NCBI GenBank assembly: GCA_963924555.1
Contig: OZ004597.1
Span: forward strand, 1,116,001 to 1,180,000
From: Crambe crambe
Taxonomy: Eukaryota > Porifera > Demospongiae > Poecilosclerida > Crambeidae
Reading direction: 5' to 3'
Length of the DNA: 64,000 nt
Shown here: positions 5,018 through 62,800 of the stretch, piece by piece
Layout: each line of letters starts with the position of its first letter
How positions within the stretch are numbered: position 1 is the first letter of the stretch
Program-made: the position numbers and the translations under genes
Notes under the pieces: generated by a model
Seen by the model: the letters and a program-made list of their open reading frames with translations, nothing else
The model's database searches: none
Told to the model about the DNA's origin: nothing

Positions 5018-5575
5018 ATTGACAAGAAAAGTCACAACCTTATTATGGTATGATATCACTTAAATTATTCATTTGTGTACACCCGATAGCACTGGGTGCA
5101 CTATTTTTGTGATTATTGCATTATGTCATCATTACATAATGGGAATGTCTGTCTGATGGTTGATAAATAGTAACACAGTGTTGTTAACATGCTGTAAACA
5201 ATAAAGTTATCATTGAGTGGGGATGTAGCTACCTACGACTATTGACCTTTCAGATCATCAATAAGCCTGAGACAAAACCAGCCTTAATAAAAAGACGGTC
5301 ATGTGCACCTGTGCTTTATCCGTTCTTTCTTTGCTAGTGATATGTCACTGGTGGGACTCCTCTGCCAGAGTGCATAGTTATCATTTGAGTGGGATGTATA
5401 ATAGCTACAGGCTATTGTCCTTTCAGACATTTTAACAAGCCTGAAACACTATTGAGACAGCATTCCATAGCCTATTAGTACTACTTGTTATGTAGTAGTT
5501 ATCATTACAGAGAAAGGGTACTGCAGTCCTAGTTATTGTGTGGTACATATAAACACTCAGGATAGGTCCTGAAGG
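5018..5575. repeat. Convergent intergenic gap with a diverged ~75-bp direct repeat
   Basis: This 558-bp spacer separates the 3' ends of CCDC103 and the minus-strand gene at 5576-6309. It holds two imperfect direct copies of a ~75-bp segment, at about 5205-5279 and 5376-5449. Both begin AGTTATCATT-GAGTGGG-ATGTA and share CTATTG(A/T)CCTTTCAGA and AA(T/C)AAGCCTGA(G/A)ACA. The copies are about 95 bp apart and clearly diverged. They look like remnants of a dispersed element or a local duplication. I see no coding potential or RNA gene in the spacer. Confidence 0.6.
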
Positions 5576-6309
5576 TCACTTTTCACTGATGGGAGGTAAT
5601 TTTCTGTCTCCATCTCCAGATTCTCTGCCATTGCCTTGCATCAATAATGATTCTTTCATTTGGTCATTAAGTACACCTCTTTTCTTAGTGGATAGAGACT
5701 TCACATCATTAGACCCATCTCTCTTGGTCTCATGCAAGAGCATCCTTTTTACCAATGCATCATCCTCTTTGATGGGAGGTAATTTCAAAGATGGGTTTGT
5801 GAAATCGGTGGTATACCATGTTGTGGTATAATGTGGGCTAATGTAGATATTCCTCTCAGTGGCAGGAACTATTCCACTTGCAGCCTTGACAAATCCCTTG
5901 CTGCAACCATGGCGCGTTCTTGAAGCACACTTCAAAAGTGAATCAAACTGTGGGGTTTGGAAGTCATGATGAGTCATGGAGGAGAGGCAGACAGTTTGTG
6001 GCTTTGGTTTTGTTCCCTTTATTAAATCATTAGGTGCCGCTGATGGAAGGAATCCTATTATAATAACCTGGTCGTTTATTATATGAATTCACTACCTATC
6101 TCACATACTAGAGTTTCCATGGAAATCCATTTGGTATGTAGTGGCATATAGATGCTTATCTAGTTCAAGTAAAGATGCTTCACATGCTCTGATGGAAGCA
6201 AGCACTTCACTGGTTCCCAAAGATGGATGCTGGATAAAAAACAAAGTAGATCTACTATGGTTTGAATTATGACATCAATAAACTGTACCTGGGTTGGGTT
6301 AAAATCCAT
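5576..6309 (-). CDS. Unrecognised 211-residue protein, possibly cilia-associated
   Basis: Three exons join cleanly. Exon 1 (6289-6309) encodes MDFNPTQ. Exon 2 (about 6112-6234) encodes HPSLGTSEVLASIRACEASL and a DKHLYATTYQMDFHGNS segment. Exon 3 (about 5576-6056) starts FLPSAAPNDLIKGTKPKP and ends DRKLPPISEK. The protein is soluble, with no signal peptide or membrane helix, and short proline motifs recur (LKLPPIKEDDAL, RKLPPISEK). A stretch PHYTTTWYTTDFTNPSLKLP is reminiscent of small microtubule-inner or sperm-tail proteins, but I cannot assign a family. It is tail-to-tail with CCDC103 and head-to-head (218 bp) with the first ABC transporter. The ciliary role is only a guess from style and neighbourhood. 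Confidence 0.7.
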
Positions 6310-6367
6310 GTCAGTTATATAAACAGAGTGATATGTCAGAGGTGTAAGAAAAAGGTAACGAGTTCAT

Positions 6368-6378
6368 TGCGCATGCTC
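6368..6378 (+). promoter_or_regulatory. NRF1-like motif TGCGCATGCTC
   Basis: The sequence TGCGCATGCTC lies between the divergent start codons of the 5576-6309 gene and the first ABC transporter. It matches most of the palindromic NRF1 consensus YGCGCAYGCGCR. The same 11-mer occurs in reverse orientation in the Hsp110/PLK4 spacer. Function is inferred. Confidence 0.4.
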
Positions 6379-6459
6379 AAATGTGGTTATGAAAAGGAGG
6401 CGTGATCCGATCGCGCCACGATCTGTGCAGTGCAGTTTAATATTTGCAGCTGCCTGGAC

Positions 6460-6466
6460 TATAAAA
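6460..6466 (+). promoter_or_regulatory. TATA box for the first ABCB gene
   Basis: TATAAAA followed by AGG sits 62-68 bp upstream of the ATG at 6528, so initiation would fall near 6490 with a 5'UTR of about 35-40 nt. It is the clearest TATA element I noticed in the window; most other genes here lack an obvious one. Confidence 0.55.
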
Positions 6467-6527
6467 AGGCAAGTGCAGCATAGAGCTAGAGCCCTTTTCA
6501 TTCTCGAGATATAGAGCTAGAGGCAAA

Positions 6528-9500
6528 ATGAACTCTGAAGACCAAGAATTGAAAACAGTACCATTCCCATCCGATGCCTCTACCTCCCTCGATAAGAAGT
6601 GAGGACTTCAGCTAGCTATCAATCCCGTTTCTTGCCTGCCAGTAGGCTAGGCCAACCATTAGCCACTAGCTATGAACAAAGTATTGCAAATTCCTCTCAC
6701 AACCACTTCGTGTAGTTGTCAATAATGAACTACATACCAATGATTTTACAATAGAGATAAGGGTAAAGATGAAAAGGAGAAGAAGCAAAAAGTATCACCA
6801 ACCAACATTATAACCTTGGTGAGTTTTATAGTAGTAATAATACCTTTGGCTTCAGTTGTAATGTTCATATATTATTAATCCTAGTTTCGTTATGCCTCTT
6901 GTTTTGATATCCTCATGATGCTACTTGGAACGGTGGCTGCCATCGCTCATGGAACTGCCCTCCCTTTGCTCATGCTCTATTTCGGAGATCTGACAGACAA
7001 CTTTATCAACCAGGAAGCCTCATCTGCTTTAGCTCGTGACATCTCCAATGTGACCGGGATGGCCATCAACTGCAGTTCTGTGTTTAATTTTCCTGTCAAT
7101 AACACTTTCATTATCCGAGATACGGACATCATGTCCATCCTGCAGTTTAATTCCCGTCTGAATAACCCAAAGTGCCTGCTCGGTGATACCTTTTTTGAAG
7201 CAATCAATATCAATGTTTATATCTTTCTGGGGATAGCTCTCGGGGTGCTTATCGGAGCCATGTTGGAGATTTCCACTTTCCAGGTAGCAGCTGAGCGTCA
7301 AGTGTACAAGATCAGACTGAAGTACTACAGGTCTCTCGTGCGACAAAATATTGCTTGGTTTGATGAGAATCCTACAGGCGAACTCGTCAACAGACTCTCT
7401 GAGTAAGTAACTCATGCTTGAGTAAGGGATGCTATCATAATTCTCCCGCACTTGAGTAAGGGGTTCTGTAACTTCTGTCATGTTTTTCTTTCTCTGTTTT
7501 TCTTTCTCCTGCTCCCTTGCAGTGATATTGAAAAAATTTATGCTGGAATTGGAGATAAACTTGCCATCTTCATTCAATGGATGACTACTTTCTTTGCTGG
7601 ATTTGCTGTGGCCTTCTCCCAAGACTGGAGACTGACACTCCTCCTGGTTGCCTTCACACCTTTCATGGCCATCAGTGGAGCAGCGCTTGCCAAAATCACA
7701 TCTGCCTTCACCAGTCAGGAGCAGAATGAGTATGCCTCAGCTGGAGCTGTGGCTGAAGAGGTTCTGTCTTCCATTAGAACAGTCTATGCCTTTGGAGGTG
7801 AAGCTAAGGAGTGCATGAAGTAAGTTGGCATAACAGTAAAAAAATAACATTCATCATGTTATGTTTGGTCAAACGTCATGCCATAAACAATGTATACTTA
7901 CATTAAGCTGGTCAAATAATTTGTATCACATGACTGATTCCTTTTTTAGATATGACGAGAAACTGAAGCTAGCACGTCGTCTAAGTGGAAAGAAAGGATT
8001 CACTGTTGGCGTAACTCTTGGCAGTATTTTCTTCTTCCTTTTTGCAGTGTATAGCGTCGCTTTCTGGTTCGGTGCATACCTGATTGCAGAACATGGTGCA
8101 CAGGGTGGAAAGATCTTTGCTGTTTTCTTTTCCGTGATCATTGGAGCTCTTTCCCTCGGACAAGCTGCTCCCAACCTTGAGAATTTGGTGACAGCAGCAG
8201 GTGCTGCGACCGTTGTGTATAAGACTATTGATAGGACCCCACCCATTGATTCTTCATCAGATAAAGGACTTAAACCCGAGAAACTTGACCCCACTATTGA
8301 ATTAAAAGATGTCAGCTTCACTTATCCAACTAGGCCAGAAGTAGAGGTAAGCCATAAACAATTACACCATGTGACTATCATGTGATGTAGTATAATTTGA
8401 ATTGATGCTGCAGGTGGTGCACGAGGTGAACCTAAAGGTGGCAGTTGGCCAGACAGTTGCTTTGGTGGGACCTTCAGGCTGTGGCAAGAGCACAGTTGTC
8501 CAACTCATTCAGAGGTTCTATGATGCAGCAAGTGGAGAGGTAAAAATAAAAAAATAAAAAAATAAAAAATAAAAAAATGAAGGAGGAAAATAATATGTAG
8601 GTGCTGGTGGGTGGAATGAATGTGAAGGAATTGAATTTGAAGTGGCTGCGTAGTCAGATTGGAGTGGTGTCCCAGGAACCTGTCCTCTTTGACACTACCA
8701 TTGCTGAGAATATCCGCTATGGGAGGGAGGACGCCACTATGGAGGACATTATAGAGGCAGCCAAGAATGCCAATGCTCACAACTTCATTTCCAAGCTACC
8801 AGATGGGTATGACACAGACGTGGGAGAAGGGGGCACACAACTGAGTGGAGGCCAGAAGCAGCGGATAGCTATTGCCCGGGCCTTGGTTTCCAATCCCCGT
8901 ATTCTACTATTGGACGAAGCCACTTCTGCCCTGGACACAGAGAGTGAAGCTATTGTGCAGGAGGCACTGGACAAGGCCAGGAAAGGACGTACCACCATTG
9001 TCATTGCTCACCGCCTCTCCACCATCCAGACTGCTGATCTGATTGCAGCCATAGATGGAGGTAGGGTAGTCGAAATGGGTTCTCATGAGCAACTAATGGA
9101 TAAGAAAGGACTCTACTTTGACCTAGTCACTGCTCAGGTATAAGAGATTATTTTCCAACTCGCAAAAGCACCCCATCGATCAATTTTTTTTTTTTTTCAT
9201 TTTAGTCATTTGGGACTGATGAGTTATTTACTGGAACGAAATCACTTGGTCGTCTCTGCTCAGGGGTATCAGATGGGGATGCAGACATCCAAAGAGAGCA
9301 ATCCAAACATGATTACCAGCAGCAGGCTTCAGTTGATCCCTCAGGAAAGAAGACGAAGAAGATATCCGAAAAACAACAGGAGAAATGGGACAAGGACATT
9401 CCTGAAGTTTCTCTGAGGCGTGTCCTGGCCACAAACACCAAAGAGTGGTGGATCATTGCTCTTGGAGTGTTAGGTGCTGCTGTTAATGGGACCCTCTACC

Positions 9501-52000: not shown

Positions 52001-52583
52001 TCATGCATGATTATATTGATGCACTGTGAAGGTTCCGACATTAAGCCACTGCAGGACAAGTTTTTGGTCCAGACTCACACCTTTGGCAGTCAGCAGAGCG
52101 TGCCTCAAATGTCTCAACTGACCTCTTACTGGAAGTCGTTGCCTTCCTCAGCCATCAGAGAACACAGGTATTTCCTTAGGAGGGTGTGGCCTGGAGTAAG
52201 AAAGCGGTAACGTAACATGGTGTTTACGCAATATTTTAGGATGCGATGCAGGTTGGTTTCACAGAACCCAGACAGTCCTGCTCATCAAAAGGCTGCTGCA
52301 CAGAATCAGAACCTGGGAGCGGCGAGAGGAACAAAGTTGGCTAGTAAGGGGCTTGTTCTAAATGAGGTTGAACTCGCTAATCCTGGAGAGAACTTGGAAC
52401 AGAAGGTATGAAAATGGCCCCTTTTTCTCGGCCACTGACTGTGATGATAATCTTTCAATTTAGGTTCAGAAGTTGCTTGTAGCCCACACCAAACTGTCCA
52501 CTAACATGACACGTCTTCAGAGACTGAATTATTTCATTATTGTTTTATTGCTTGTTCTGCTAATAACGGTCTATTTCTATTGA
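49079..52583 (+). CDS. MOSPD2: MOSPD2, ER membrane-contact-site tether
   Basis: MOSPD2 is an ER tail-anchored protein with a CRAL-TRIO (Sec14-like) domain and an MSP domain that binds FFAT motifs on other organelles. Exon 1 encodes MALAACKLSAE, then EVHRCARRLQENFLRVHSG. The CRAL-TRIO part includes LTWRKEFGVN, GFDINGHNVVILNISKH, RMCMIFDMAGAGLSNMDMEL, VRFIINCFKIYFPDLLEWLL and FVTPENIQDYIPADNLLKKF. The last two match human VRFIINCFKVYYPKYL and the NEVQDYVSVEYL region. An acidic/Ser linker precedes the MSP domain (PAHELVFSGKKDSDALCTLT, IKTTAPTRYKVRPNLALID). A single C-terminal helix (YFIIVLLLVLLITVYFY) ends at TGA 52581-52583. The intron at about 50535-51034 is the largest and holds a short GAACATGCCCCCTTT duplication. 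Confidence 0.92.
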
Positions 52584-52797: not shown

Positions 52798-55700
52798 ATG
52801 GCAGGTTAGTGAACTGTTTTCACACACGTGCAAGCTACCGTTAAAAAGTAAACACAATGGAATGTAGAACTCCAGCACCAAATAACCACAATTCTAAGTT
52901 TTGTACACTAGCTATTAGCTGAAATTCTGTTGCTGCATTTTGCTAGCAGCTGGCTGCTGTGTAAACAATAGTATGATACCATTCTCCAGCGTCCCATCAT
53001 CAGCTGTTCAGCGTGGAGGAGCTGAGGGAACACCATGTGAAGCTGATGCAGCTCATTCACCTCCCCACCCTACTCCCTTTCCTCAAAGAAAGAGAGCTCC
53101 TTTCACCAGATGACCTGAAGCATGTGTCCGATACCAAACACTTTGGTACGATTGAACGTACAGGTTTTCTTCTTCACTCCTTGTACAAGAAAGATCAGAA
53201 GACTATCAATGACTTCATCAACTGTTTAAGGGAAGATAAGGACCACCCAGGGCACCAGGAGATTCTATCACTCCTGGAAGGAGGACTGCCCGATCTTCCT
53301 TCTCGCTCACCTCTCTTTGACATATTGGACTCCAGGCTGGATGTGATAGTGGAGCAAATTAACTTCACCACGTTTCTAAATACCCTCACGAACTCTGGAG
53401 CCATCCGAGTGACGTCATTCTTGGACTTGGTGAATCCCGACCGTCGTGTGAAAGAGAACCTTGAACGTCTCATCCGTGTATTGGAAGAGAAAGGCAACAT
53501 TGGTTTCATCGACTTTCTGACCTGTCTCAGGACAGATGCGACTCCAGGTCACGAGGACCTCTTTAAAATATTGTTCACAGAGGGTAAGTAAAAGAACAGG
53601 ATGGAGCTAGGTGAAGGGGTGGTATTACTTCTTTATTAATTGACCCTTATAGTTCAGAAGTTTTTTAAGGAGGACCCAAGACGTGATGAAATCCCTTCAA
53701 GTGATAAAATAGAATTACTACAACTAGAAACTCGTGGAAAAGTTTTGGAGAAAGAAGTTGTCCAACGTTTCAAGATAAACTTTGCAGAGCTTCGGGCTGG
53801 TCTGAACGGTCCTGCTTTACTCTCTGACCTGCAGAAACACCACGTTCTCTCAAAGGAGGAAGCAGCTGCACTGATAGACCTGAGGCGCGATCGCAAGCAA
53901 TGCAACTTGAAGCTCTTGGAAATTGTGGAGATAAAACCGCCATTTTGGGTGGTCAAGTTTGCCGAATGCTTGAAAGAAAGCCCTGAACACAAGCTATTAT
54001 CAGAGTTGCTTCTCCCACCACCTCCTATTGGTGAGTTGAATAGCTCTGGACAGGAGAAGTAGATGAATAACTTCTTTCATGTCTATAGCAACTGCCAAGG
54101 AGGAGCTGAAAGAAGGGTCCATTACTCATCTGAATGGTACGAGTATCCATACAAGGAATGAACGTATTGTTTACTCTTAGCTAAAGAATGTGCAAAATGT
54201 TACTGGACAACTCCTTTGGCATGTAGTTAGCACTTTAATTAGTTAATAAGTTGGACATCAGTTGTGGTCTGTGGAATTTGAACTCTAGATAAGGTTTTGG
54301 TGATGGTGCATATGGAGAAGTACGTTGAGGTAGATGAAGACTATCAGATAAGGGAGTACAGACCCGATGACTTCATCTCTTCAAGAGATAGCATGAGAAA
54401 CCTCAGACAAAATCGGTTTGTCAATTCTTAGGATTCTTGCACGCAGGTTAAAAACAAATTTTAACGTGTTATGCATTTCCTTCTCAAGTAAAATGTTGCG
54501 GAATCATTTTGCTCAGTCGAATTTCAAGATAATAGACTTGAAGTTGAATGTTAACATGGGAGAAGAGCAGGAAGAGAATGTGAAGGAATCAAAGCAGATG
54601 GCACAAATCCTATCCAATGCTTTCCGAGCTCAAGTGGCCTCAAAGTGCTCCCCAGAAGCTATTATTTTCATATACATTACTGGGGTTCAATTTCCATGGG
54701 AGGTGAGTGTTATGTCGTCTATGCCTAATGGTTTATAAAGAACATGATGTTGAGGTTATGTCTTCACACTCTTTTCCAGGTCCCCAGTTCAAATGGGTCA
54801 GCTCCTGTAAGTTATGTTCCTAATTACGTCGTCACCTTTGCCTCTCCCTAGTCATAATTTTTGTCTCTGTTGTTATAGAAACGGAAGTACTTTAGTGGTG
54901 CTATACTGCTAGAGGGAGCCTCCACAATCAGCCGAAAAGAGGTGTGTCTCCAGATCACATGACTCTTGTGACAGATCACATGTTTTTCTTTCGCATGACT
55001 TTTCCCTACATACTCAGGTGGACTGCCTCAAAGCGCGTGACCTTCTCCGTTGGTTGGAGCAGCTGCCCACTGCCCATGTGACATTCCTCATAGACACCGA
55101 GCAAAATTTCGTTGCAAAATTTGGAAAGCAACGTCAACCAGAAGTGGTGGACATCTTGGAGGACCCTTGGAGCCAGCTCACTGACTTAAACTCGTCGACA
55201 GTTGTCTATTACTTGCGTCCGGATATCCGGGCCATGGCCCAGCTGAGAAGCAAAGATGAGAAACTGGCGACGGGTATGCTTACAGAGTGTTTCAACTTTG
55301 CCCTTCTGCACTGTTTCGTGCGAAAGAGCGAAGGACAGGAAGCGAGTCTCTGTCATCGAAGGTTTTACGAAGCCATTTCTTTCTTCTGGCATAGGAGAGG
55401 TAGACAGCATAAGATCTTCCTTCCAGCTGCCAGGGTAAGTCCTGTTGCTCGGCTGTATATTCCATGTGGTTATACTGTCTCTGTGTCTGTGTCTCCCAGG
55501 GAGACTTGAGTCGAGAGTTCCTGGGGAAAGGAGTGTTTCCTTATCAACAGGTCTTCAGAGTGGACTTGGTCAGAAGTAACAAAAAGAAGGATATATTTAA
55601 TCTGGAAAAACTCCATGTGAGATTAGATCAAAATACTAACCAGCAGGATGGTTTAGTTTTGAGTTTCATTCCAGATCCAAACTGGGACCATGGCTGGAAT

Positions 55701-58306
55701 CAGTTATGGTGATGAAATGGAGGTATTCCATTTGTTGCGTCCTGGAGTACGAGTGAGGGCCACAGTGATGCAATCCCAGCCGTTGTCTTGCCAACTGGAG
55801 ATAAAAAATGAGGAAGCAAAGAAGAAACTGGCACGAGCTGTCACCGACATCTATCAAGTAAGAAAGCAGTAGCTATTAAGATAACACTCACACACATCAA
55901 AGTTGACTTCCATCCCATGACTACAATTACTATTAAAAGGATGGAGAGATTTTGTCAAAAGATGGTTCCACTGAGTTTCTATTTGCTGTTAATCTTCTTG
56001 CTCTTCATGAGAGAGTGTCTGTGAACACTCTGGAGCTCAGTGAGAGTGAGTTGTCGTTTCCAGAGGAGATATCTTTACGACTACACATCCTTCTCTTCAG
56101 ATCCCTCTCTTTTTGACTCAATATGATTGTTATCCACAGGTGAAAATGCCACCATTAAGATGTATGTGGAGAAGAAGTCACCTCGATTGTCGTTTGTCTC
56201 AAGAGGAATGTACGTTTGAAGACCGCTCCAATGTGGTGAATATTGTTTTATGGATGAGTGATTTCGTCTGCCCCAGGGCAAAATTGATTGTGCGAAGGAG
56301 CGGGGACCTTTACTATGTGGATGACAAGGATGGTGATGTGAAAGATCAAGTTAAAGTGAAGAAAGTGAACTTGATTCTGACTTTCCTTGGTAAGTAGGAA
56401 AGAGCTAGGTCTACTTATGACTCTAACCCTTCCTCTTTCAATGTCAGAAATGATAGCATGGTATAAATATGTCAAGAGTTTGAAGTCTACAATAAAACCT
56501 CCATGGAATCATTTTAATTGTTATTTGACTGCTGGTGAGTTACAAAGAAGGTCAAACCATCTTTTATTTCGTTCATTTATTCCCTGATAGAGAAACCATT
56601 GCTACACACAGCTGTTCCATTATGTAATGAATTCAACATCAAGTGGTCTAGTTTCGAAGGAGTTGAACCCATGTCCAAAGGTCATGGAGCTATCTTACAG
56701 ATACCCGACTCCCAAAAGTTTTGGACCCCCAGTCCTCCAGCAAGAGACCCTCACCCTTGCCTAGAGGTGGAATTCAAGGGGAATCATGTGATAACTGCAA
56801 TAGAGCTCAAAGGTATGAATTGGCAAAGTCCACAGAAAACTGAAAGGGTGTACTTGATTTCTTGATTTGTTCTCCTCCTCAGGCGATTATCGTGAGGAGA
56901 AGAAATATATGAAACGTGCAGACATCTACCATCAGAAAGATGTGTTCAACAGTCTAGTGGAAGGCCCCAGCAAGGAACACTTGTCCAGGACTCAGATCTT
57001 TAGCCATGATGAAGTCGTCCAGTTTGTTACCATGACACCTGTTACCATGGCGGAGGATGATTTCAATATCAAGTTTAAACTAACCCGTAGGACTTTGTCT
57101 GGAGCTAAGGGTGCTCCAAGTAAGTTTATTTGTTTGTTTATTTGTTTGTTTGTTTATCAAAAGAAAAAATCTTGCATTAGGGGAAATAGAAGGGCTGACG
57201 ATAGTGAATTGGGCTTTTCATGAACAGCTTGGAACTGGCTGGAAGTTTTCCCCTAGTCCAGACGAGAATGGAGTGATTAAACTGGGTAGTTCTGGCTTCA
57301 GCTGGATCAGCTGGTCTGGGAGGTCTCAAGACCCGATGACGTTGGATCTCGGAGTATCAGGTGTCAAACTAGAGAAAATTGAGTTTACGTGTAAGTTGGT
57401 ATATGATCTATACTTGTTTGCATTTACCCTGTCCATTATTCTAGCCCTTACTGAGACGAACTACCTCAGTAAATTTTTCCTTCGGTTGCAAACTTTCTGG
57501 AAGAAAGAGGACTTTCCAGAGATTAGAGCAGTTTGGCCATTCAAACACGAGTTTCCTCGGCCGTTGGTGATATCAAACATTCAACTGTGGCCAACTGCTG
57601 GAGGTAGAGGTCATCAGAGTGACATTGACATCAAAGTGCAGCTCCAACTCTATGGAAATAAGCATGGTTAGTTAGTCTTTGAAAATGTTGCATGATTATC
57701 ATGTGATTTCCACATGACTGTAGAAAAACCCATTGAAGTTGAGGAAGGGGAAATCCTATCATTTCACTTCAATAATTACACTCAACATGACCTATTTGTC
57801 TACATCTTCTGCCTGGAAGAAACTGGTGAGTTGCATGGATGTCCAGCTTGCGATACTTTTATTGTGGTGGTACGTATTTGCAGGAAATGTCAAGTTTGTG
57901 ATGATGGACACTGCAGATCCGATTGAGCAAGGAAAAATCTCCACAATGAAGAAGCTGATTCAGACTTATATCCCAGAAGGTAGCTGGTCTATATCACTTT
58001 CACTTAATATCCTCTTCCCTTTAGGTTACAGTCCTGAGCTTGGGCGGATCAAGGACATTTACAAAGTTTTCATATGCCAGCGCAAGATGTACATGGAGCC
58101 CTTTATGCAGCGTGGTCTCAGCCATTACCACCACCCTTGCTGTTACGCTGTCTCTTCCTTTGGACCGCAAGTAAGTGAACCGGACAGCAGGGGAAGCTGC
58201 ATTTTGATTTGTGTGCACGTGTTTTCTGTAGGAGGTGAGAAAGGAGGAATGGTATGACTTCACCTTCGAGGTGATTGTAAAGAAGTCTAGTACCAGCAGG
58301 AGATAG
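52798..58306 (+). CDS. Triple-CARD protein with degenerate caspase-like domain (~1300 residues)
   Basis: Exon 1 (52798-52804) encodes MA and joins at 52990 to SHHQLFSVEELREHHVKLMQ. Three CARD-like six-helix units follow: about residues 10-95 (LLSPDDLKHVSDTKHFGTIE, INDFINCLRED), 105-195 (NPDRRVKENLERLIRVLEEK, FIDFLTCLRTD) and 215-310 (VVQRFKINFAELRAGLNGPA, KFAECLKESPEH). Residues about 385-640 resemble a peptidase C14 fold: strand TNFNVLCISFS, strand SNFKIIDLKLNVN, strand EAIIFIYITGVQF, then LLRWLEQLPTAHVTFLIDTE. The usual SGHG and D-A/T-C-x-S-G catalytic loops read YITGV and DTEQNF, so it is probably inactive. C-terminal beta-rich parts include EEGEILSFHFNNYTQHDLFV and KDIYKVFICQRKMYME, resembling the beta domain attached to many caspase-like proteins. 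The gene ends VIVKKSSTSRR at TAG 58304-58306. The exon at 55019-55434 has an ambiguous 3' part. A scaffold role in death or immune signalling is inferred. Confidence 0.75.
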
Positions 58307-58456: not shown

Positions 58457-58772
58457 ATGTCTGCCCATAGGTCGGGTATGAGATTTGATGAATCTGAAGC
58501 TCAAGCTCAGTGGATGGACTATGAGAACTTTGACGAGGTACCTTTACATTATTACTTACAGTATTTTCACCGATTTAAAACCATTGCGTAGGCTGGAGGC
58601 TTATCAATATCTGCTGACTTGGCCCAGAACGACAGAGCAGTTCATGTGGATTTCTTCAATGGTAAGGACTATCTAGATGGAATAGCATGAGAACTAGTAG
58701 CTCCCCCTTCATAAACTTACTCATATTCTTACAGACTTTGATGATATTTTTGATGACGAAAAGCTGGACTAG
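58457..58772 (+). CDS. COPS9: COPS9 (CSN acidic protein), COP9 signalosome subunit
   Basis: COPS9 is the small ninth subunit of the COP9 signalosome, which removes NEDD8 from cullins. Three exons (58457-58537, 58592-58660, 58735-58772) encode about 62 residues. The core FDEAGGLSISADLAQNDRAV, followed by HVDFFNDFDDIFDDEKLD, matches human [20 protein letters not shown] and HADFFNDFEDLFDDDDIQ. The acidic Phe/Asp-rich tail is the defining feature. The N-terminal MSAHRSGMRFDESEAQAQWM differs from the vertebrate head. The gene starts 151 bp after the triple-CARD gene and is tail-to-tail with MOB4. Confidence 0.95.
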
Positions 58773-58977: not shown

Positions 58978-59711
58978 CTAGTCTTGAGATTCCTTTTCCT
59001 GGTCCATAGGGACTATCAGGTTCTCTTGGGACATCAATTCATACTTTATTACAAAACGAGTGAACCTTCTACAAAGGTGAGTTTCCTTCTCAAACTCATC
59101 AAAGAGTGTGCGGTGGTGGAAGTAAGCATGAGAGAAGATGCGATACACACGTCTAGCCACTGAGCCCAAGCGTTGCATGGAGCTTTCCTTGATGTCAAAG
59201 CGACTTGGAAAGTGTTTTGTGCTATTGAGAAGAGAAGCAGCTCCATGGAGGGTGTGCAGGGTATAGTCCAATGCTGAACATTTCTTCGGGTCTTTGTGAG
59301 CAGCACACAGGAAAATCCACTGTTCTGTGGCCGTCATCTGTACACAGACTTTGGGATCACACTCGTCCTGTAGTCTAACTGCAATGGAATTCAGTTGATT
59401 GCAGAACTGACGCATGTGTTCATACTTCCAACAGTCATCATTGTTCTGGCTGCTTGGTGGTGTCAGTATAGCCTCCACATTTGAAGGATCCTTGCGAATC
59501 ATTTGTTGAATATGTTGCTGGACTGGGGGAAGATCATTAGGGTAACAACAGAAAACTAAGTTTTTCCTACTGTATACATACCGTCCAGAGTACTATCCAT
59601 TTCTGAATAGTCCTGGTCTGGCCAACTGTACATGTCAGCAATCTTCGAACCAGGCCTGTTGCGTCTGATTATTTTGTCTTCCGCCTGCTGATTCTCACTT
59701 AGAGTAGCCAT
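58978..59711 (-). CDS. MOB4: MOB4 (phocein), STRIPAK component
   Basis: MOB4 is the Mob-family member of the STRIPAK phosphatase-kinase complex with striatins and GCK-III kinases. Exon 1 starts [20 protein letters not shown] (59711) and contains [20 protein letters not shown], matching human [20 protein letters not shown]. A short intron (about 59528-59582) follows. The main exon has [20 protein letters not shown], the Mob core [20 protein letters not shown], and [20 protein letters not shown] with the zinc-binding His pair. The stop is at 58978-58980 after EKESQD. The length, about 225 residues, equals human MOB4. It is co-oriented with INTU, whose stop codon lies 123 bp upstream. Confidence 0.95.
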
Positions 59712-59833: not shown

Positions 59834-62800
59834 CTAATACTGTCCAGACCAGCCAAACAATAACTTGAAAGCCATTTCTATCATGTTTTGAGAAGCATTC
59901 TCTTGACAGCATATGTATAGTTCCCTATTGATTTTTCGAAAATAACGCCTGAAAGATAACAATAAGAATGATTACAGACCGGCCGTATTTATAATTCATA
60001 CTTCCACATTTACCCAATGATCCAGTAGCAGAGTGGAGTTTTGTGGGAGAGTGTACCACACTCTATTAACACCCCTTGTTCTATGACAGAACTAGATCGA
60101 GGAACGAAAGGAGATGGGATTTGCTTGGATTTCTCCCGGTCCCCCAATTCCTCCTCACTGTCCCAATCCTCTGAATCAGCATCAGACTCTGAGTCACTTT
60201 CCACCACACTACCCTCCTCGCCATGGTCCCTTCCACCTCGCAATTGGTCTCTCAAGCTAGAGCAAGTGTGCTGGAAGCAGAGCAAAAGTTTAGCATGGAT
60301 CTCTCCAAGGGACAATGGGGGGTGGGTGGGGCAGAGCATCAGACCACAACCAGGTTCCAAGTTGATAAAATGGAATAATAGATTCTCAAACCCTGGAGTT
60401 AGCCTATAAAGAAACATAAAATTTATACAAGTATAGCCCGCATAGTGGAAAGGGAAGGCACAGAGGTAGGAGAACTGGTAATCAATCACTGAATGGATAA
60501 TATCTCTTGAAGAGTTTTACTCCTATAAGGGTCTAGGTTAATGCTCCATTAACCAGGAATATGAGAATGAAACATTCCATCAACCATAAGGAGAAATGAT
60601 AACAAAGACAGATTTGTCCCCTCAAAGGAAGTAGATAGATAATTATTATACACTCACATGTAAGCAGGTTGGGATGTTCTTCTAGTAGTGCTCTTGGTAA
60701 AGAGTTCAGCGCTACTATTTGCATGCAACTGATGTTTTTGCTTCCTCTGCCGGAAACTTGTCTTGAGGTGGAGCATACTATGAGACCTAACATGACCAGA
60801 ACTCTTCTGGATGCTTCCTGCAGCATTGTCTTCATCATCTGAGTCTGAACCTGCCTCAAAGCTGAGTTTTCTTGCAGAGTTGAATCTAGGGAAGACAGGA
60901 TCTGAGAGTTTCCTCACTCTATTGGAGGTAATGGGACTGCTGTGGTAGGAGCGGGAAGAAGAGAGCTGTCTATTTGAACGAGCAAGGTGAGATGCTAAAG
61001 CTACATCAGCAGACAGGAGGCTTGGGAGTGGAGTGTTTTGTCCTAGATCTGGATTAAAGAGGTCCTGCATCCTTAGCTCATAGAGCAAGGAACGTCCCTT
61101 GCTGACATACATAGGATCCAGACTAGGACAACGACTATTGTCACTTTGGTGAGAGATAAGCTGCATTAGCATACACAGCAGCGTCTGATCCATTCCAATC
61201 ACCAGCAAAAACATTCTTATTGGTTGATTGATCATGTGATACACTGGATCACTCTCCTTCCCTAAGCTTGAAACTGATGACAGAAAAACCTGTAGAAAAT
61301 AGAAGTTTATATTGCTAGAAAGGATCCCTAATAACAGAAATTTTAACATGTACAGTATGACTCTACCTCATTCCAGACAACTATTTGTGAGACTCCTTCC
61401 GTGGCTGTCAGTTCCAGCAGCCTATAAGCATGGCAGAACAAGGCTACCTCTCTCAGGTCACTGGAAGAGAGGTGGCTGCAGGCCAAGGCCCCTCTGTGCA
61501 TGAGGCAGGAGCCTGTCATCAGGAATGGCCTCTGAAACTGCAGTATTTCGGGACGGCTACTGTGGTCTGTACCTTCTAGGTCGCTAAGAATCACATCTAA
61601 CTGAACCTACAGGATATGGGTGGGTGGAGTCATAATATCGAGAAAAAAATTTCAAACATGAACTATACAGATCTTCATTAAAAAAAAAATAAATTATTTT
61701 TCACAATGAAAAATCTTGATGGCAAACTTACAACTACATCTGTTGGGAGGTTGAGTCGAGGGATGGTTGGCACTCCCAGAAGAGAGGAGGAAGGAGTTAG
61801 AACAGTCTCAGAAAGGATCATGTCGAAAATGAGGTCCAGAAGATGTTGGACTGTGGCATGGTGACTGCTATCAGTGAAGGCACTAGTTGATATAACATTC
61901 AGAGATCAAAATAATCCACTCCCAAGTCAACACGATTTGTGACGTTTGAAGAGACTTACTTATGTATTGTTCCAAATAGCAATTTTACAACTGCATCCAC
62001 ACTCTGGAGAAGCAGCTGCAACTGGTATTGAGTGACACTGAGGGAGAAGGAGAGGTTGGGGAGGGGAAGAGGTTGGGGGGTCTAGCAGTCCCATTGGGAT
62101 GATGAACACTAAGAACTTACAGTTGTGCAGGAAGAGCTAGTAGAAGCATTTCCTTCCCTTGTTGGGAACAACTGAGATGAATTAGTTGATCCTTCAATAC
62201 TATGCTGGAGCTATGATCATAGCACATAACAGTGTAACTACATCTGTTTGGACCAAGTTTTTAGTATTACTTGCAAGCGGACGGAGAACCGGTCATAGTG
62301 GCTAGAACATCGCTAAGAGTGAGAAATACACCTCTCAATTTCATCAGCTCTTCGAAACTCTCCTTAATTTCACCATCCTCGTCCTCAAGCAGTATTGGAT
62401 ACCGAAATAGAATGTCCTGAATGATGATAACCATTTCAATTCCACACTGATATTCATTATTTTCATCAACTTTTTTTTTTCCAAACTGTATAATTGGATA
62501 AAGTTACCTTTTCTGGAGGATCACCTTCTTCAGTATCTAGAGTGAAGTAAAGGAGCATGTGGAGATGTCTGTGCTGTTTCCTTGGGTCAGGTCTTGGAGT
62601 TCCCCTTCCACCCATCACTAGTCTCACCAGTCCACCGGAGGAGAGCCCACATGGAGGAGGGGAGGAAGCAGGGGAGTGGTCCCAGGGAGAGCCAGAAGAA
62701 GAATGGGCCCTCTTGATCAGTAAGTGGACCCTGCTTGAAAGGGTTGCCAGGACTGAGTCTATGTTGTCCATATTGACTGTATGTTGGTTGACAGATAAGA

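Follow-up and report, generated by a model that had tools for sequence, protein, structure and literature searches.

A triple-CARD gene of the sponge Crambe crambe with a caspase-like core that has lost both catalytic residues

Our analysis of 64,000 nt from the genome of the sponge Crambe crambe (contig OZ004597.1, positions 1,116,001 to 1,180,000 of the forward strand; hereafter the window) identified one gene in which three CARDs are followed by the core of a caspase-like (C14) domain whose catalytic His and Cys are both lost. Our preferred reading, to which we give a probability of roughly 0.5, is a cytosolic pseudo-caspase scaffold with three CARDs, for which we infer a decoy or scaffold function. 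In this reading the protein probably does no cutting itself and instead brings together and regulates other players in cell death or immunity. Since it combines three CARDs with the absence of a catalytic pair, a platform is the simplest working model. The three N-terminal CARDs would attract other CARD proteins or form polymers together with them. The dead C14 domain probably offers a surface for dimerisation or docking, through which partner caspases or adaptors are turned up or turned down, much as cFLIP does with DEDs. The long C-terminal region, with its possible discoidin-like module, probably senses a ligand or keeps the protein inactive.

The gene model (Table 1) was assembled manually from its exons and verified with a script. 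Its coding sequence of 3837 nt opens with an ATG at 52798, contains no internal stop and ends with a stop codon at 58306, so that the limits 52798..58306, which a first-pass annotation of this DNA had proposed, coincide exactly with the start and stop codons of a single, splice-consistent model of 23 exons. All 22 introns are of the GT..AG type and 45-185 nt long, the frame is unbroken over 22/22 exon junctions, and the other two frames of the spliced coding sequence contain 77 and 81 stops. At the junction of exons 5 and 6 at least two forms are possible; intron 5 was set to 54420-54516 (97 nt) because this form preserves the reading frame and agrees better with the rest of the introns than a 31-nt alternative does. 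No membrane span was apparent in the protein by Kyte-Doolittle (19-residue stretches, none >1.4), and the product is therefore probably cytosolic.

All three CARDs are real, as the first-pass annotation had claimed for three tandem units. In the whole protein, Pfam assigns PF00619 to aa 13-89 with E 5.5e-10. A CARD scan of the genome gave 26.6 bits for this first unit, which is above the Pfam cut-off, and 19.7 bits for CARD 3, while CARD 2 was unlisted. Searched in isolation, the latter two stay under the cut-off, CARD 3 with 20.4 bits compared to the required 23.9 (E 5.4e-4) and CARD 2 with E 0.11 only. A profile of 20 other CARDs from the same genome matched CARDs 1, 2 and 3 with 38.0, 25.1 and 26.2 bits; each score was reached by 0/500 shuffles, the best of which gave 11.7, 4.6 and 5.5, respectively. 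The AlphaFold2 (AF2) model of exon 2 contains two six-helix sets (6+6) at low confidence (predicted local distance difference test, pLDDT, 45), and the 40 rows that Foldseek returned for it are mostly CARDs or CARD-based designs, none with E <0.001.

The C14 assignment relies on a wide profile, for which 80 loci, kept out of 119 confirmed in a scan of bacterial and archaeal genomes, were combined with 25 sequences of the sponge itself. The latter derive from 20 own loci, one of which (L004) was dropped for its stops, and from six further own open frames; the remaining 26 of the 46 own C14 matches came without a locus, and some of these were fetched. Three sequences without the SGHG pattern were dropped and 102 passed, which thinning by similarity reduced to 66 (48 bacterial, 18 own). 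Aligned to this profile with hhalign, the domain scores 36.1, or 37.3 once realigned, with a probability of 67%, compared to 24.0 for the best shuffle (0/300) and 21.7 for the best other open frame (0/156, none of them near the domain's score). The control frames were what was left of 243 open frames after 87 had been removed as C14 (>30 bits), and by eye they include NTPase-like pieces. A bacterial-only profile of 48 sequences gave 35.7, and 23 bacterial sequences, with most cyanobacteria removed, gave 35.5, both with 0/300 shuffles; in hmmsearch, the domain reached 11.0 bits where the top-scoring of 500 shuffles gave 5.2, and 9.8 where that of 300 gave 2.4. The core alone (aa 431-505) scores 35.3 in hhalign with a probability of 84% and 0/200 shuffles, and the alignment spans SPEAIIFIYITGV to FLIDTE, i.e. 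the SGHG strand-loop, the intervening helix and the DxC strand-loop. We regard the presence of the b3-a3-b4 core of a C14 domain as statistically supported by these profile comparisons.

Both active-site loops lie within this core. The hhalign alignments to the C14 profile bear out the earlier reading of YITGV at the SGHG place and DTEQNF at the DxC place. An active C14 peptidase has a His after b3 and a Cys after b4; these positions are taken by Val443 and Glu506, and Gly442 and Asp504 of the same loops are retained. A conserved His/Cys dyad elsewhere in the domain, which the first-pass annotation had named as evidence that would speak against it, did not emerge, since all 12 His/Cys residues of the domain were listed and no pair stands where b3 and b4 end. 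With both catalytic residues lost, the predicted C14 domain cannot cut.

Downstream of the C14 domain, long beta-rich domains had been expected. A sub-threshold F5/8 type C match was recovered there, but the remainder gave no match. Exons 18-19 contain, by eye, a second discoidin-like copy. Exons 10-11 and 20-22 may resemble the sequence found downstream of C14 in certain caspase-like proteins of fungi and bacteria; no such region was seen in the 13 of the 80 bacterial open frames and the four proteins that were read for it.

Several results weigh against a pseudo-caspase scaffold with these parts. Pfam, with E up to 10, reports no caspase domain in the protein, and phmmer of the domain against PDB sequences yielded no caspase match. 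A profile built from the C14 domains of the sponge's own genome gives no clear match here, the score being reached by 142/300 shuffles in hhalign and by 9/300 in hmmsearch; for a profile of a subset of them the figure was 8/313. One of the 156 control frames scored higher in hmmsearch (16.7 bits) than the domain itself (9.8 to 11.0 bits). Thus far the caspase-like fold of the first-pass annotation stands for the significant core (aa 431-506), but not for the flanks, which score like shuffles (123/200 reach the score before b3, 40/200 after b4). The AF2 model of exon 9, made from the exon alone, has a pLDDT of 44, and no caspase is among the matches listed for this very poor model by Foldseek and VIA; its order of helix, strand, helix, strands, helices and last strand would fit, which is not proof. 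As to the discoidin-like part, the PF00754 match at aa ~882-971 reaches 22.6 bits compared to a curated cut-off of 28.2 (E 1.2e-4), a genome scan with PF00754 gave five matches, none in this gene, and phmmer of this part on PDB had no discoidin structure among its matches.

By eye, the strands and helices on either side of the core suit the order of a caspase fold. We infer that a complete C14 fold extends beyond the core, starting by eye at about aa 343 and not at residue ~385 as given before. Since the core is matched by the wide profile, which is mostly bacterial, but not by the own-genome one, it resembles the SGHG (orthocaspase/metacaspase) kind, in agreement with the "metacaspase-like body" proposed earlier. 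A bolder version of the scaffold would be an animal pseudo-orthocaspase, in which a C14 domain of the SGHG kind with lost catalysis is joined to three CARDs and a discoidin-like sensor as a one-protein inflammasome-like platform. This version is doubtful, and we know of no counterpart to it. Relatives of the domain were also sought elsewhere: tblastn against plasmids gave 521 records with <60% identity, of which the rows shown (E 3 to 4) are unrelated genes and were taken as chance, and among viral contigs 12 stretches fit a pattern, none of which encodes a relative.

The middle domain could also belong to another alpha/beta (Rossmann-like) fold, leaving a triple-CARD adaptor with a body of other kind. 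This would account for a single 75-residue core matching C14 without its flanks, for the missing Pfam and PDB matches and for the pLDDT of exon 9, but it leaves unexplained why the core clearly outscores both the shuffles and the other open frames and why the two loops in the alignment are precisely those of the active site; we consider it unlikely. Somewhat less likely again is a dominant-negative decoy after the model of cFLIP-short or ICEBERG, whose CARDs would block an active CARD caspase or an inflammasome by occupying its recruitment sites, with no need for a pseudo-caspase body. Three CARDs with a dead C14 core are compatible with such a decoy, yet its long C-terminal region would be superfluous and no CARD caspase to be blocked is evident, the nearest CARD and C14 matches lying 43 kb apart in an exon-wise search that can miss some.

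Two further explanations concern the gene itself. Two or more adjacent genes might have been misjoined in one model, which was built from genomic DNA and has the ambiguous exon 5-6 junction. However, the frame continues over 22 junctions, the following gene is recognisable (MYEOV2/COPS9 from 58457), and the model gives no sign of the split into separate genes that the first-pass annotation had considered, so that a misjoin is quite improbable. The lowest rank of all, close to dismissal, goes to a decaying pseudogene of an active caspase: the active-site residues are gone and no second copy was found, but 1278 aa are open across 22 intact GT..AG introns.

The genome that was searched comprises 143 Mb in 119 contigs. 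A search with the whole protein returned 21 rows, of which 17 fall on the gene itself and three on other CARD places. The remaining row, a match of the pseudo-caspase piece (L041, E 0.02), lies in a place that is repeat-rich by eye and was taken as chance. No second copy of the gene was detected; within the reach of this search it is single copy. The genome has at least 46 C14 and at least 34 CARD matches, two of the latter belonging to this gene; both counts are lower bounds, and the exon-wise search can miss CARDs. Another gene with CARD plus C14 was not detected, the closest such pair of matches being the one 43 kb apart. Caspases of QACRG type are present in the genome, and its other C14 and CARD exons are possible partners.

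Two groups of long open frames were observed in addition. Three of them (L043:6130-7725, L044:143-1543 and L044:4944-6452) encode one or two CARD-like units and then a helical-looking region, and Pfam sees CARD only in the two that were scanned. Their CARDs, found by the whole-protein search, are related to those of our gene, but they have no C14 region. Four long C14 open frames (L045:1426-3066; L046:1096-2574, 5331-6725 and 6836-8257) have SGHG and DCC motifs and by eye a similar C-terminal region; three of them adjoin one another.

In the window, what looks like the final exon of a gene upstream (52464-52583, + strand) encodes a hydrophobic tail, LNYFIIVLLLVLLITVYFY, as in a tail-anchored protein. 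The MYEOV2/COPS9 gene (58457-58772, + strand; PF15004, E 3e-11) is small, with about three exons by eye, and starts ~150 nt past the stop of the CARD/C14 gene. On the minus strand follow a gene of the Mob1/phocein family (58978-59502; PF03637, E 5e-36) and an open frame with a sub-threshold Intu_longin_2 match (60654-61349; PF19032, E 0.003).

Table 1. Features of the CARD/C14 gene, in positions of the window
Feature	Position	Strand	Remark
Whole gene	52798..58306	+	23 exons, 1278 aa; hand-joined exons, script-checked
CARD 1 (exon 2)	53019..53249	+	Pfam PF00619, aa 13-89; 26.6 bits in genome scan; 38.0 bits with own-genome profile
CARD 2 (exon 2)	53307..53567	+	25.1 bits with own-genome profile; Pfam alone E 0.11
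CARD 3 (exon 3)	53736..54011	+	Pfam alone E 5.4e-4, 20.4 bits; 26.2 bits with own-genome profile
Caspase-like (C14) domain, exons 4-9, aa ~343-617	54136..55434	+	core significant; flanks by eye only
b3-a3-b4 core of C14 match, aa 431-506	54649..55101	+	hhalign, aa 431-505 alone
Val443 in place of catalytic His (YITGV for YSGHG)	54685..54687	+	hhalign alignments
Glu506 in place of catalytic Cys (DTE for DxC)	55099..55101	+	hhalign alignments
Region without match, exons 10-15 (beta-rich by eye)	55500..56534	+	no Pfam match, E up to 10
F5/8 type C (discoidin-like) domain, weak	56707..57046	+	PF00754, E 1.2e-4, 22.6 bits
C-terminal region, exons 18-23 (beta-rich by eye)	57181..58306	+	no match

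Dead caspases are already known (PMC11121540, PMC6426788), as are proteins of sponges that carry several Death-like domains (PMC8195603). A layout of three CARDs, a dead C14 domain and a long C-terminus was not found described in the open literature, as far as its available text extends. If our reading is true, the occurrence of CARDs with an SGHG-type pseudocaspase in a possibly early-branching animal would mean that scaffolds made from dead caspases have more than one origin, with this one coming from a different C14 branch. It would also provide a tractable partner-finding system for the origin of CARD signalling.

The best-known pseudocaspases are, to our knowledge, vertebrate cFLIP and caspase-12. 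cFLIP-long pairs two DEDs with a body that closely resembles caspase-8, and caspase-12 has one CARD and is near kin of active inflammatory caspases. cFLIP-long lacks a long C-terminal region; the sponge protein has one, and its three CARDs precede a C14 core of SGHG type. Both vertebrate proteins are treated as pseudocaspases in a published account (PMC11121540): in cFLIP-long, as in the protein described here, a caspase-like domain devoid of catalytic residues comes after recruitment domains, and caspase-12 is likewise proposed to be a pseudocaspase that modulates inflammatory caspases. For the sponge Amphimedon, Death-like/TRADD-N proteins with 1-3 N-terminal Death-like domains and variable C-termini, including caspases, are described, discoidin-fold lectin-like modules are proposed as intracellular sensors, and the accessible text describes no inactive caspase in sponges (PMC8195603). 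In contrast to these proteins, ours has no Pfam TRADD-N match. The bacterial pseudo-orthocaspases likewise possess a p20 domain in which the His-Cys pair is replaced, mostly by Tyr and Ser, and no CARDs appear in the domain schemes quoted from that source (PMC6426788), whereas the gene described here combines Val and Glu at these positions with three CARDs in an animal genome.

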